Below are positions 13,032-19,653 of a stretch of DNA of 64,000 bases, in pieces. The position numbers and the translations under genes are program-made. The DNA is from Halorubrum salinarum (GTDB lineage: Archaea; Halobacteriota; Halobacteria; Halobacteriales; Haloferacaceae): assembly GCF_013267195.1 (NCBI RefSeq), contig NZ_CP053941.1, forward strand, positions 992,001 to 1,056,000, written 5' to 3'. The notes below the pieces were generated by a model. That model saw nothing but the letters and a program-made list of their open reading frames with translations. It was not told where the DNA came from and searched no databases. Within the stretch, counting starts at the first letter, position 1. Every line of letters starts with the position of its first letter.

Positions 13032-16000
13032 TTACTCGTTGCGGCGGGTCGCGAGCAGCGCAGCGGCGATGAGCGCGACGAGCGCGACGATGGCACCGAA
13101 GCCGGGCGTCTCGCTGTCGGAGGAGCCGTCGGACCCGTCACTACCGTCGGAGCCGTCGGAGCCATCCGAACCGTCGCTGCCGTCGGAGCCGTCGGACCCG
13201 TCGGACCCGTCACTACCGTCGGAGCCGTCGGACCCGTCGCTACCGTCGGAGCCGTCGCCACCCTCTTCGAGGGTGAGCGTGGCGGTCTGCTCATCGTCGT
13301 CCGTGAAGACGCCGTGCTCGTACTCACCAGCGTCGAGGCCGGACGTGTCGACGTCCGCGAACTCGACCGTGGTGGACTCGCCACCCGCGAGGGTGACTTC
13401 CTGACTGGCGACCGCGTCACCGCCGACGCGGAACTCGACAGTCTGGGTGACCTCCTGGCCACCAGTGTTCTCGACGGTGGCCGTCACGGTCAGCGCGTCG
13501 CCGACCGTCGCGGTCACGTCCTGCGGGTTCAGCTCGGAGACTTCGAGGAAGGCGGCCTCGCCGACCGTCTCGACGACCGTGCCGTCTTCCTCAGCGCTGA
13601 AGGTCGCCTGCTGCGCGGTCACGGTGAACGTGTCGTTCACCGAGGCCTCGCTCAGGTCGAGACCCGACGCCTCGAACGTGCCGTCGGCCTGGACGGTCAC
13701 GCCCTCGGCGGTCTGGACGAAGCCGGGCGAGACACCCGAGTCGGAGCGCACGCGCACGTTGAACTCCTGCCCGGGCGCGACGTTCGTCGTGCCCGTGATG
13801 GACTGGTTCTCGGCGGCCTGCACTTCGACCGGCGTGTCGAATTCGCCCGTCGCGTCCTCGTACGTGAACGTCGCCGTGGCGGTCTCGTAGAACTCCTCGA
13901 GACCGTCGGCGTCGTCAAGCGCGTCCTCGTCGGGGTCGAGCAGGCGCTCGTCCCGGACCTGGACGCGGACCTCGAAGGCGTCCTCGTCAGCGATGTCGCT
14001 GCTGAGGTCGAGGTTGTTCTCGTTGAAGGCGATGAAGTAGTTGCCCTCAGTCGAGATGACCGTGATGTCGCCGTCGTCGAACATCGACGTGACGTCGGCG
14101 GTCTTGCGCGGCGAGTTCGGCGCGGTCGTGTCGGCCGTCTGCCGGATGCGGATGTCGATGGCACCACTGTCGACCAGCGTCTCGAGGTCACCGTTCAGCT
14201 CGAGGGGACCCTCGAGGCCGGTCGCGGTGAGCTCGTGGACGAGAACGTCGCTCTCGGTGAGCGTGTCGGTCTCGACGACCGTGCCGTTCTCGACACCGTT
14301 CGTGATGTCGGTAACGGTCTCAACGTCCTCGAAGACGTCAGCCGAGGAGGTCCACAGCTGGAAGCCCTCGACGGAGCGCTCGTTGAGCTCGAGGTCACCG
14401 ACCGCGTCGGAGTTACCGTTGGCGGTCGCGACGAAGCTCGTGTCACTCATCTCGATCGGGTACGTACCCGCCGCGAGCATGTTGTTGAGGTCCGTCTCGG
14501 ACTCGTTTTCGAAGGTGACCGTCGCGTCGCTGTCCGAGTCAGCGAGGAACGCGACATCACTGCCGGAGACACCGGAGGCGCTGGTGTTGCCAGCGATGTA
14601 GGTGTTGAAGCCGACCGTGACGCTGTCCTCGCCGCCGGATTCGACGGTGACGTTGGTCTCGTAACCAACCTCATCGTCGTCACCGATGGTGAGGTACGCG
14701 GTCTCCAGGTCGCCCTGGAAGTTGATCGTGATGTTCGCAACGTCACCGCGCTCTTCGGTCACGAAGCTCTCCTCGAAGGTGATGTCACCCTCGGGCGCTT
14801 CGACGACGGTGAACTCACCAGACTCGGCGGTGACCGCCGAGTTGTCATCGGTGACTTCAACCGTGTAGGTACCCGTCTCGCTCTGGGTACCGAAGTCGAC
14901 GACGACCTCGCCGTCACTGTCGATCGTGGTCTCGACCGTGTCGACGACATCTCCGTCGGAGTCGAGCAGGTCAGCCGTGATGTCACGGTTGATCGCGTCG
15001 GACGTGACCGTCGCGGTCACGGCGTCGCTCGTCGTGAATTCCTCTTCGTCGGACTCAACGTTGAGACCGAGGTTCCGGATTTCGAGGGTGGACACAGTGC
15101 CCGCATCGTTGGTGATGTTGTAGTCACCGGTCTCGAAATCATCGGTGTCGAGGACGTAGACAAGACTGTTTGTACCGGTACCACGGGTCCGACTGACACC
15201 CGGGCCGTCGATGTCGAAGGAAGCGCCGATGGTGCCGTTCTCGAGCGCAACGTTCTCACCGCTGAAGGCTTCGAACGTCGTGCTGGAGTCCGTTGTGTCA
15301 ACGGTGGTCGGCGCGAAGGTAACATCAACAGCGTCGCTGCTGAGATCGTTACCAGATGTGTCCGTAACACCGGTCACGGAGACGTTTTGGACATTATTGT
15401 AGACTGAAGTTGTGCTGATCTGAACCAGTCCAGGTGCGACCTCATCACCGGAGATGTCGATGGAACTTCCACCGACGATGGTTCCGTTGCTGAGACCGAT
15501 TTCCGCATCACCGTTGGAGACATCGACATCCTCCGAGAAGGCGATCTCAAGAACGGGCGTCGAGGTCCCGTTCTCGTAATGGGTCGCCTTACGGATAGTG
15601 GGCGCCTCAATATCAGAGGTGACCGTACCAACGGTCTGATCTGTCAGCTCAAAGGTTCCGTCCGCGTTGGCGTCAACGTCGGCAGTGACGTCAAAGCTAC
15701 CGGATTCCGTGAGAGAGACCTGGTCAGCGGTGAACGAGACGTTAAGCTCGTCACCGGCAAGGCCGTTGTTGTCATCCCACTCGATGGTAATCTCGTTCGC
15801 TGAGTCATCGAGGTTGCTGCCGACGTTTGTGGTGTTGGTGCCAGCGCCGGTGCTCTCAACGGCCTGGTTGGTCAGACTCGCCGAGGACAAGTCGAATGCG
15901 TCCGGGAACTTGAACGTTACATTCGCGTCAGTGTCCCCATTGCTGGTATCCACACCATCCAAGTGTATCTGGATGTCATAAGACTGTTCGCCTGCATCCG

Positions 16001-16151
16001 CTGTGGTGGGCGAAATGCTCCCTTCATTCGTGCCACTGGCTTGCGCAGCAGCGGGAGCGGCCGCAAATCCGACAGCGACCATGGAAACTACCATGACCGC
16101 CGCGAAGAAGACCGAACTGGCCTTCTTGCGTGTGGTTGTGTCGTTTGTCAT
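13032..16151 (-). CDS. csg: S-layer glycoprotein
   Basis: The protein has 1039 residues. A Sec signal peptide covers about residues 1-36 (charged MTNDTTTRKK start, hydrophobic core, APAAAQA). The body is beta-rich and strongly acidic, with many N-x-S/T sequons for N-glycosylation. Near the C-terminus is a low-complexity GSD linker of about 12 repeats. The last 24 residues form a PGF-CTERM signal (PGF at 1016-1018, hydrophobic helix, RRNE), which archaeosortase ArtA removes before lipid anchoring. This order matches known haloarchaeal S-layer glycoproteins. The 5' half has lower GC than the flanking genes. Confidence 0.95.
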   Translation of the reverse strand: MTNDTTTRKKASSVFFAAVMVVSMVAVGFAAAPAAAQASGTNEGSISPTTADAGEQSYDIQIHLDGVDTSNGDTDANVTFKFPDAFDLSSASLTNQAVESTGAGTNTTNVGSNLDDSANEITIEWDDNNGLAGDELNVSFTADQVSLTESGSFDVTADVDANADGTFELTDQTVGTVTSDIEAPTIRKATHYENGTSTPVLEIAFSEDVDVSNGDAEIGLSNGTIVGGSSIDISGDEVAPGLVQISTTSVYNNVQNVSVTGVTDTSGNDLSSDAVDVTFAPTTVDTTDSSTTFEAFSGENVALENGTIGASFDIDGPGVSRTRGTGTNSLVYVLDTDDFETGDYNITNDAGTVSTLEIRNLGLNVESDEEEFTTSDAVTATVTSDAINRDITADLLDSDGDVVDTVETTIDSDGEVVVDFGTQSETGTYTVEVTDDNSAVTAESGEFTVVEAPEGDITFEESFVTEERGDVANITINFQGDLETAYLTIGDDDEVGYETNVTVESGGEDSVTVGFNTYIAGNTSASGVSGSDVAFLADSDSDATVTFENESETDLNNMLAAGTYPIEMSDTSFVATANGNSDAVGDLELNERSVEGFQLWTSSADVFEDVETVTDITNGVENGTVVETDTLTESDVLVHELTATGLEGPLELNGDLETLVDSGAIDIRIRQTADTTAPNSPRKTADVTSMFDDGDITVISTEGNYFIAFNENNLDLSSDIADEDAFEVRVQVRDERLLDPDEDALDDADGLEEFYETATATFTYEDATGEFDTPVEVQAAENQSITGTTNVAPGQEFNVRVRSDSGVSPGFVQTAEGVTVQADGTFEASGLDLSEASVNDTFTVTAQQATFSAEEDGTVVETVGEAAFLEVSELNPQDVTATVGDALTVTATVENTGGQEVTQTVEFRVGGDAVASQEVTLAGGESTTVEFADVDTSGLDAGEYEHGVFTDDDEQTATLTLEEGGDGSDGSDGSDGSDGSDGSDGSDGSDGSDGSDGSDGSDGSDGSDGSSDSETPGFGAIVALVALIAAALLATRRNE
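13125..13262 (-). repeat. 9-bp tandem repeat coding for the Gly-Ser-Asp linker
   Basis: About a dozen imperfect copies of a 9-bp unit encode GSD tripeptides just before the PGF-CTERM anchor. Codons vary (GAC/GAT, TCC/GGC/AGC), so the protein repeat is better kept than the DNA. In other S-layer proteins the equivalent Thr- or Asp-rich stalk spaces the glycoprotein from the membrane. Confidence 0.85.
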
Positions 16152-16712: not shown

Positions 16713-17447
16713 TCAGTCGGCACCCGCCGCCGCTCCGCTCTGCTCTCGTCCAGGCGACCCGGCGGTGTCGCTCGCGTCCTCGTCTACCTCCGCCGCCAGC
16801 GTCTCCACGTTCGCGAACACGAAGCCGGCGAAGCCGACGCGGAGCAGGAGGTCGAGGTACTCCAGCGTGACCGCCGCGGTGAACGTGTCGAACAGGCCGG
16901 CGATCTGGAGCATCGCCCACGCGATCAGCACGCCGAACGCGAACAGCACGAGATTTCGCGTCTTCTTGTAGAACAGCTCGCGGGCGGGCGGCTGCCGGGC
17001 GGCCGCATTCGCGATCGGCCCGAAGTACAGCCCGACGAGCGCGACGTAGCCGACGAGGATGCTCGCCGTGCCCGCGGTCGCGAGCGCGCCGTCGAACACC
17101 GCCGCGACGTCGTAGCCGAGCCGCATCGCGACGATCAGCGCGACCACGCCCGCGACGTACCGCCGGCTCGCCCCCGAGACGAACGCCGCGAATCCGAACA
17201 GGAACGGGTACGCCACGTAGTCGGAGAGCAGCTGGCCGGCCTCCAGCGTCCCGTTCGCGACCGCAAACGTGCCGATCCCGGCGGCCCACGTGCCGATCCC
17301 GACGCCCGCGAGCGCCACGACCGCGACGAACGGGTAGCAGTACCGCCGCAACTTGGCGGGCTTGCGCCGCGCCAGCGCGAGCAGCACCACGGCCGAGACC
17401 GCGTACACGCCCGCGGACGCGAACCGCACCGTCGACGGCTCAATCAT
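16713..17447 (-). CDS. microbial-rhodopsin homologue lacking the retinal lysine
   Basis: The protein has 244 residues, seven hydrophobic helices and an acidic tail. It aligns from memory with sensory rhodopsin I/bacteriorhodopsin: SGASRR after helix C, an IGT-x-x-V-x-NG segment before it, YKKTRN at the start of helix F, and YLDLLLRVGFAGF in helix G. At the Schiff-base lysine position (helix G, D-x-x-x-K) the residue is Arg203; the preceding Asp199 is kept. Aligned ungapped on Pro81, the counter-ion Asp becomes Ser75 and the helix-C Arg becomes Gln72. It therefore cannot bind retinal in the normal covalent way. The start overlaps the transducer gene by 8 nt, as in htr-sop operons. Lysine-less type 1 opsins have been reported in haloarchaea; their signal is unknown. 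Confidence 0.85.
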   Translation of the reverse strand: MIEPSTVRFASAGVYAVSAVVLLALARRKPAKLRRYCYPFVAVVALAGVGIGTWAAGIGTFAVANGTLEAGQLLSDYVAYPFLFGFAAFVSGASRRYVAGVVALIVAMRLGYDVAAVFDGALATAGTASILVGYVALVGLYFGPIANAAARQPPARELFYKKTRNLVLFAFGVLIAWAMLQIAGLFDTFTAAVTLEYLDLLLRVGFAGFVFANVETLAAEVDEDASDTAGSPGREQSGAAAGAD

Positions 17448-19023
17448 CGGCGCTCACCTCCGCGTCGCCGGCGGTCGGACTCGCGGCGGCCCTCGCCGCG
17501 CCCCCGGCCTCTCCCGCGTCCGCTCGCGTCTCGAACTGCGCGAGCCGCTCCGTGAGCGACGCGGTGCGCTCGGAGAGCGCGGTCGCCGTCTCCGCGAGGT
17601 CGCCCACCGTCTCCGCGGTCTGGTCGGCGGTCTCGGCGAGCGTCCGGGCGCGGTCGGCGGCGTCGGTCGCCGAGCCGTGGACGGCCTCGACGCGGGCCGC
17701 GACCGACTCGATCCCCTCGGCGCCCTCGTCGGTCGCCCGCGCGATGTCGCCCATCGCGACGTCGACGTCCTCGACGGTGCCGGTGAGCTCCTCGATCGCC
17801 TCGCCCGCGGCCTCGACCGCCGCGGTCGTCTCGTCGAGCTCCGTCATCGTGCGGTCCATCTCGCCGGCGACCGCCGACACGTCCTCCGTCACGTCGCCGA
17901 TCGTCGCCTCGATCTCCGTGGTGGACGCGCGGGTCTCCTCGGCGAGCCCCTTCACCTCGTCGGCGACGACCGCGAAGCCGTCGCCGTCGCCGCCCGCCCG
18001 CGACGCCTCGATCGAGGCGTTTAACGCGAGGATGTTGGTCTGCTCCGCGATGTCGGCGATCACGTCGGTCGTCTCCGCGACACCGTCCATCCGGTCGTCG
18101 AGGCCGGCGACCAGCTCGTCGAGCTCCTCGAGGAGGTCGGCGATCGCGGTGATCGCCTCGACCGCCTCGGTCGCCCGCCGCTCGCCCTCCGCGCCGAGCT
18201 CCGCCGCGGCGGTGGCGTCGCCGGCCACCTCGTCGGTGGTGGAGGCGATCTCCTCGACGGTCGCGGAGAAGTCGTCGGTGTCGTTGGCCGTCTCCCGTAA
18301 CCGCTCGGTCTGTGCGTCCAACTCGTCGGCCAGCTCGCGCATCTCGGCGGCCACCTCCTGGTTCATCGCGGCCACGTCGTCGGCCTCCGCGGCCATCTCC
18401 TCGCTCGTGGCCTCCACGTCGCCTGCGAACGCCTGGATGTCCTCGACCGTCGTCGAGAGCCCGCCGGTCATCTCGTTGTACGCGGCCGTGATGCGCTCGA
18501 TCGCGTCGACCTCGCTGTCGGCGTCGAGCCGGCGGGTGAGGTCGCCCTCGGCGGCGTCCTCCATGGCGCCGCCGATCTCCTCGGCGCGGTCTAAGAGGGT
18601 GTCGGACAGCTCCTCGGCCTCCTCGCGGGCCGCCTCCGCCTCGGACTGCGCCCGCTCGGACTCGGCGACCGCGTCCCGGAGCGACCGCCGCGTCTCGTCG
18701 AAGGCCTCGAAGAGCCGCCCGATCTCGTCGCCGCGGTCGGAGGTCGCGCTCGCGTCGAACTCGCCGCGCCCGACCGCCTCCGCGGTCTCCGTCAGCCGCC
18801 GCAGTTCGACCGCGACGTTCCCGATAAGGACGATACCCAGCAGGCCGAGGTTCAGCGTGACGACGACGCCGACCGACGCCAGCGCGGCCGTCGCCGCCGC
18901 CGCGGTGCCGACCGTCGCCACGTGCCCCGCGAAGAGGGCGATGAAGCCGAGGGTCACGGCGAGCGTCGCGAGGACCGCCGCCCCGACGCGCCGCCCGTAC
19001 CGTGCGGTGATCGCGTTCAACAT
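17440..19023 (-). CDS. Htr-type methyl-accepting transducer paired with the lysine-less opsin
   Basis: The protein has 527 residues. Two transmembrane helices (about 13-35 and 42-68) are joined by a very short external loop with no ligand domain, as in transducers that sense through a rhodopsin partner. HAMP-like segments follow (about 70-120 and 160-210), then a long coiled-coil methylation and signalling domain with the hairpin tip IADIAEQTNILALNASIEA and EVKGLAEETR. It should signal to CheA/CheW and flagellar (archaellar) motion. It is first in the operon, with CCTAAATAGG about 29 nt before the ATG, so it is probably leaderless. The input presumably comes from the opsin-like protein. Confidence 0.9.
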   Translation of the reverse strand: MLNAITARYGRRVGAAVLATLAVTLGFIALFAGHVATVGTAAAATAALASVGVVVTLNLGLLGIVLIGNVAVELRRLTETAEAVGRGEFDASATSDRGDEIGRLFEAFDETRRSLRDAVAESERAQSEAEAAREEAEELSDTLLDRAEEIGGAMEDAAEGDLTRRLDADSEVDAIERITAAYNEMTGGLSTTVEDIQAFAGDVEATSEEMAAEADDVAAMNQEVAAEMRELADELDAQTERLRETANDTDDFSATVEEIASTTDEVAGDATAAAELGAEGERRATEAVEAITAIADLLEELDELVAGLDDRMDGVAETTDVIADIAEQTNILALNASIEASRAGGDGDGFAVVADEVKGLAEETRASTTEIEATIGDVTEDVSAVAGEMDRTMTELDETTAAVEAAGEAIEELTGTVEDVDVAMGDIARATDEGAEGIESVAARVEAVHGSATDAADRARTLAETADQTAETVGDLAETATALSERTASLTERLAQFETRADAGEAGGAARAAASPTAGDAEVSADD

Positions 19024-19203: not shown

Positions 19204-19653
19204 ATGCCCAGCGTCAGCGAGACGTACATCGAGAACCGCCAGCGCGTCCAGCCCACTCACACGAACAACTACGCCTCCGCGCACGGGGGCAACGTCGTCA
19301 AGTGGATGGACGAGATCGGCGCGATGTCCGCGATGCGCGCCGCGGGCGAGACCTGCGTCACGGCCAAGATCAACGCGCTCGACTTCAAGCGGCCCGTCCC
19401 GCAGGGCGACACCTGCGTCATCGAGTCATATGTGTACGCGGTCGGGCGCACGAGCCTCCGCACGCGGATTCGCGCGTACCGCGAGTCCCCGCGGACGGGC
19501 GAGCGCGAGCTCACGACGGAGTCGTACTTCGTGTTCGTCGCCGTCGACGCCGACGGCAGCCCGACGCCCGTCCCGGAGCTGGAGGTCGCGGGCGAGCGCT
19601 GCCGCGAGCTCCGCGAGGAGGCGCTGGCCGGAGAGCCGGACGAGGACCGGTAG
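19204..19653 (+). CDS. acyl-CoA thioesterase, hotdog fold
   Basis: The protein has 149 residues. The N-terminal THTNNYASAHGGNVVKWMDEIGAM segment is the conserved hotdog helix and active-site region of YciA/BFIT-type acyl-CoA thioesterases. Later motifs (FKRPVPQGDTCVIESYV, LTTESYFVFVAVD) fit the same family. Expected reaction: hydrolysis of acyl-CoA to free acid and CoA in the cytoplasm. The ATG lies 29 nt after GTGTTTTTCCC, so it is likely leaderless. It is divergent from the transducer gene. Confidence 0.88.
   Translation: MPSVSETYIENRQRVQPTHTNNYASAHGGNVVKWMDEIGAMSAMRAAGETCVTAKINALDFKRPVPQGDTCVIESYVYAVGRTSLRTRIRAYRESPRTGERELTTESYFVFVAVDADGSPTPVPELEVAGERCRELREEALAGEPDEDR

Follow-up and report, generated by a model that had tools for sequence, protein, structure and literature searches.

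The locus analysed here raises the question of what an opsin can sense when the lysine for retinal is missing and a taxis transducer is encoded right beside it. It lies in a window of 64,000 nucleotides from Halorubrum salinarum (the window is the whole stretch of DNA that was analysed, and all positions refer to it). The initial annotation had described two overlapping reading frames, and both, together with their 8-nt overlap, were found in the sequence. The parts of the locus that are needed below are as follows.

16713..17447, minus strand: open reading frame of the opsin without the lysine, 244 aa, a group A opsin-related protein with seven helices and a B-C hairpin
16839..16841, minus strand: codon CGC of Arg203 at the position of the retinal Schiff-base lysine, aligned to SRII K205
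16851..16859, minus strand: codons from Tyr197 (SRII Y199, the transducer dock) to Asp199 (BR D212 position), from the alignment
17220..17225, minus strand: codons of Ser75, at the site of the counter-ion, and of Asp76, at that of BR W86, from the alignment
17232..17234, minus strand: codon of Gln72, at the position of the helix-C Arg in SRII and BR, from the alignment
17440..17447, minus strand: 8-nt overlap ATGATTGA of transducer stop and opsin start, read from the sequence
17440..19023, minus strand: transducer of 527 aa with two TM helices, a HAMP domain and an MCP signalling domain, and with no extracellular domain
17677..18201, minus strand: MCP signalling domain (Pfam PF00015)
18673..18828, minus strand: HAMP domain (Pfam PF00672)
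18817..18891, minus strand: transducer TM2, about residues 45-69, from hydropathy and HtrII alignment
18850..18852, minus strand: codon AAC of transducer Asn58, equal to HtrII Asn74, which docks SRII Tyr199 (HMMER alignment to 5jjn_B/2f95_B)
18922..18990, minus strand: transducer TM1, about residues 12-34, from hydropathy and HtrII alignment

Downstream of the opsin (13032-16151, minus strand) there is a gene for a 1039-aa surface-type protein with a DUF7827 domain, a long Gly-Ser-Asp repeat and a PGF-CTERM signal. On the other side, a 4HBT thioesterase gene (19210-19653, plus strand) adjoins the transducer and is divergent from it.

It has been reported that some haloarchaeal opsins lack the lysine. 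In Becker et al. 2016 (PMC4915679) they were named opsin-related proteins (ORPs) and sorted into group A, which has arginine, occurs mostly in Halorubrum and stands beside a HAMP/MCP gene in 15 of 16 cases, and group B, which has a hydrophobic residue at the lysine position. The same paper describes ORP transcripts, eight species that have ORPs but neither canonical opsins nor genes for retinal, and the ORPs of Hrr. distributum and Natrialba magadii, for which no retinal-type absorbance was seen; the former, expressed with retinal, gave no absorbance at 480-580 nm. Non-light taxis sensing was proposed for the class. The residues quoted there for the Hrr. distributum ORP (Q175-I176 and A185) fit the window protein at an offset of six, which suggests that the two are orthologs. 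The initial annotation had already stated that lysine-less haloarchaeal opsins are known and their stimulus is not established; no post-2016 literature on what ORPs sense was found in an open-access search. The identity of the opsin as a group A ORP with a cognate Htr-type transducer is near certain, which adds one more locus to this known, functionally unsolved class described in 2016. What is new here is the wider range over which group A occurs, the retention of the docking pair, and an association of the arginine with an acidic residue.

Fold of the opsin and loss of the retinal site

In a phmmer search against PDB sequences the opsin matched SRII (E 2e-7) and an SRI-like fusion (E 7e-8). 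The initial annotation had noticed a likeness to sensory rhodopsin I; among solved structures, SRII/HtrII is at least as close to the opsin as SRI. An AlphaFold2 model, built from 25 sequences (the window protein and its relatives), had a mean pLDDT of 87.7 and comprised seven helices and the B-C hairpin. Its top PDB fold matches in Foldseek were SRII/HtrII complexes, the best being 1h2s (TM 0.80/0.86, 23% identity). Searches of Pfam, NCBIfam and PHROGs gave the opsin no significant match, and the significant hits in the PDB that were examined, by sequence or by fold, were all rhodopsins; membership of a non-rhodopsin family was rejected.

The phmmer alignment placed Arg203 on SRII Lys205, in agreement with the proposal that arginine occupies the site of the retinal Schiff-base lysine, and Ser75 at the counter-ion, Gln72 at the helix-C Arg and Asp199 were also as described. 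Schiff-base lysine, Asp75 counter-ion and Arg72, the hallmarks of a sensory rhodopsin, are thus all absent. Asp76 stands at the position of BR Trp86, so an acid is present one position beyond the counter-ion site. Where aromatic residues once walled the pocket there are now D76, F171, L174 and A178, of which D76, L174 and A178 are the group A changes W76D, Y174L and W178A. A lysine elsewhere in helix G was looked for in the opsin sequence and there is none. A sequence error at codon 203 was also rejected, since CGC is three substitutions from AAG and arginine is encoded by the synonymous codons CGG, CGC and CGT in 24/24 same-genus sequences.

The transducer and its docking interface

The neighbouring gene product has the parts of an Htr transducer, namely two TM helices, a HAMP domain (Pfam, 8e-11), an MCP domain (MCPsignal, 1e-38) and an HtrII-like TM region. 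An alignment to NpHtrII (E 3e-13) covers its N-terminal 130 residues and puts Asn58 on HtrII Asn74, with the HtrII residue numbering anchored by the G83F mutant chain. Hydropathy and the HtrII alignment agree on a two-helix protein with almost no external domain, as first described. Only about 10 residues lie outside the membrane between TM1 and TM2; the transducer therefore has no extracellular sensing domain, which leaves the opsin as the only obvious sensor.

In the solved system, SRII Tyr199 hydrogen-bonds HtrII Asn74, and BR or HR given the interface Tyr and Thr bind HtrII (PMC6798134, PMC3274258). The opsin of the window combines the seven-helix SR fold with these interface residues: Tyr197, which corresponds to SRII Y199, is invariant in 40/40 group-A opsins, and the Asn74-equivalent position of group-A transducers is Asn in 41/50 and His in 9/50. 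The htr-sop gene layout proposed for the locus was found throughout most of the group, with overlapping genes in 51/54 group-A pairs; 37 pairs share 8 nt and another 14 share 4 nt.

Conservation within the genus

Orthologs were found when the opsin-transducer pair was searched for in other Halorubrum genomes, as the initial annotation had suggested. The opsin gene is present in 25/52 same-genus genomes at 58% identity or more, with one copy frameshifted; the named relatives are Halorubrum species with 59-85% identity over full-length matches. Among close orthologs dN/dS was about 0.2-0.35 and the opsin is under purifying selection. These two results set it far from a chance open reading frame. 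Gln72, like Arg203, is present in 24/24 same-genus sequences.

Some variants were also observed. The frameshifted opsin (L029/L145 in genome G037) has an adjacent transducer in which no break was detected. In a genome additional to the 25 (G024, L032/L144) a deletion remnant fuses the transducer start to the opsin end. Another genome (G047:C13) has, together with the ortholog, a second opsin-transducer pair (L035) that is 46% identical. The divergent thioesterase adjoins the transducer in the same-genus loci tested, except at this second paralog. Across genera, no neighbour gene was common to all group-A loci and none pointed to a ligand; the recurring cross-genus clusters besides opsin and transducer were antisense-like reading frames or were confined to one genus group.

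Distribution of group A across the class

With a cut-off of E below 1e-50, group-A-like opsins were found in 53 of 391 class-wide genomes, covering five families and at least 14 genera (Halorubrum and 13 further). Among 40 divergent representatives, 39 have arginine at the lysine position. Clade support was 100 for these 40 rows and 96 for group A with group B; the Arg-bearing ORPs, including the window protein, form one clade next to group B. The invariant core of the group consists of Y80, K162, R164, N165 and Y197, with R203 in 39/40, while the pocket sites 72, 75, 113, 127, 134, 171 and 199 differ between subclades and Asp199 is missing in several of them. Ala-Asp is a very frequent ending (residues 243-244) of the otherwise variable tails, in canonical sensory opsins as well as in ORPs.

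CheW was found in 52/53 group-A genomes versus 269/338 others, as raw counts that ignore relatedness. The exception (G376) has an opsin-transducer pair and no CheW at E up to 1. According to the genome survey, the host of the window makes retinal, as do most group-A hosts; among its four canonical opsin genes are at least two with adjacent transducers. Four group-A genomes (G105, G194, G202 and G376) contain neither an enzyme of the retinal-forming family PF15461 nor an opsin besides ORPs. That the family persists where both retinal synthesis and canonical opsins are missing agrees with the claimed loss of canonical retinal chemistry, and the central claim, a sensory-rhodopsin fold and transducer kept while that chemistry was lost, held in all tests run.

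Association of the arginine with an acidic residue

In a comparison of 94 opsins, D or E was present at position 75 or 76 in 37/38 rows with arginine at the lysine position and in 0/36 rows with a non-basic residue there. Four rows have His, two with the acid and two without. The only group-A row without Arg203 (L109) also lacks the acid, and one Arg row (L105) is without it. A separate lysine-less clade with arginine (L040, L116, L117 and L183, family f7) keeps Arg72 and D/E75 and has transducers beside its opsins; its lysine seems to have been exchanged for arginine independently. The independent Arg-acid changes number only two or three, too few for significance. Statistical proof of co-evolution was thus not reached, and the association should be taken as a lead, not as proof.

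Other lysine-less opsins were seen in the comparison. L150 and L187 have His at the lysine position, keep Asp75 and have a transducer-like gene in the locus. L033 and L036 (G064) and L052 (G072), in which the lysine is replaced by Val, Thr or His, belong to neither the group A nor the group B clade.

Proposed mechanism and alternative explanations

The explanation that we prefer, which in our judgement has about an even chance of being right, is a receptor that works without retinal and docks to the transducer encoded beside it. An Arg-acid pair would take the place of Schiff base and counter-ion, and a small extracellular ligand would probably act as the gate. By analogy with SRII/HtrII, opsin and transducer would assemble as a 2:2 membrane complex with the opsin as its sensor. 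Judging from the aligned residues, the guanidinium of Arg203 may occupy the site of the protonated Schiff base and pair with the acid at 75/76 (Asp76 here), and this salt bridge could stand in for the light-sensitive pair. The stimulus would then be chemical, not light. In the least certain steps, a small, probably polar molecule would enter the former retinal pocket from outside the cell and disturb the Arg-acid pair, upon which helices F and G and TM2 might move and CheA/CheW bias swimming. That the bridge truly mimics the Schiff base switch, so that a rhodopsin was turned into a chemoreceptor whose ligand breaks the bridge and drives the same transducer, is a tentative idea to which we give clearly less than even confidence.

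The preferred explanation is supported by the fold, the Tyr/Asn pairing, the gene overlap, the transducer's short outer loop, the selection, the retention of Arg203, the Arg-acid association, the retinal-less genomes, CheW and the missing absorbance of the Hrr. distributum protein. Against it count the lack of a conserved neighbour pointing to a ligand, the small number of independent Arg-acid changes, the Arg row without acid, the genome without CheW, and the fact that most hosts make retinal. The pocket variation between subclades resembles that of receptor families with different ligands and hence supports a ligand. An invariant core with variable pocket sites speaks for diverse ligands more than for one physical stimulus, though voltage or pH might be sensed instead. 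Buried charges may sense a physical state such as membrane potential, pH or salt, if the cluster of Arg203, Asp76 and Asp199 shifted with field or protonation and drove the transducer. A charged cluster where retinal would be and a transducer without a sensing domain are consistent with such a role, and Halobacterium is known to have a transducer for membrane potential, MpcT. However, MpcT to our knowledge works without an opsin partner, Asp199 is missing in several subclades, and the strong differences among pocket residues look more like ligand diversity; we therefore consider physical-state sensing rather unlikely.

The pair might also not sense at all, and instead provide a scaffold or set the signalling bias, perhaps within arrays that it shares with canonical SR/Htr complexes. 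This would suit the better conservation of interface than of pocket residues, and the host has canonical opsins and transducers with which to mix. It is nevertheless improbable, because pairs exist in genomes without any canonical opsin and every pair has its own full-length transducer. Haloarchaea make carotenoids, and an opsin descended from light sensors, mostly in hosts that make retinal, might still detect light by holding retinal or another chromophore such as a carotenoid non-covalently. This is quite improbable given the replaced aromatic walls of the pocket, the intact group A in genomes without retinal synthesis and the absence of a 480-580 nm peak from the apparent ortholog (PMC4915679). 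The frameshifted copy and the deletion remnant in relatives are what a decaying sensory rhodopsin locus would leave, but most relatives have an unbroken gene on which purifying selection acts, Arg203 stays invariant through synonymous codon change, and the opsin group is conserved across five families. The remnant reading is accordingly extremely improbable for this locus, and for the family a pseudogene is refuted by conservation.

If the preferred explanation is true, type 1 rhodopsins are not light-only, and the same fold and transducer are used for chemical sensing, in a microbial parallel to the GPCRs, where opsins are one branch. The genus of the locus has sequenced and cultured relatives, and the Arg-acid pair offers a specific mutational handle on retinal-free opsin signalling.

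Comparison with known systems

Nothing separates the opsin gene of the window from the group A ORPs (PMC4915679): the protein likewise has arginine for the lysine and the pocket changes W76D, Y174L and W178A, and an adjacent HAMP/MCP transducer and a Halorubrum host are shared. More genera were found here than that paper reported, and the Arg-acid association is absent from its available portions. Group B ORPs are also a clade of lysine-less haloarchaeal opsins, many of them beside transducers. However, they keep Arg72, have Gly75-Tyr76 with no acid at 75/76, and many are without an adjacent transducer. SRII/HtrII of Natronomonas pharaonis has the same fold, two-helix transducer and Tyr199-Asn74 docking pair as the pair in the window, whereas the window opsin lacks the Schiff-base lysine and the Asp75 counter-ion, has Gln for Arg72 and has lost the aromatic pocket. 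Bacterial Rh-noK and FArhodopsins are likewise microbial rhodopsins without the lysine, some of them with arginine, and Rh-noK regained pumping when the lysine was restored (PMC10308929). Unlike the window opsin, these proteins are kin of proteorhodopsin and xanthorhodopsin and have no transducer (PMC10308929).
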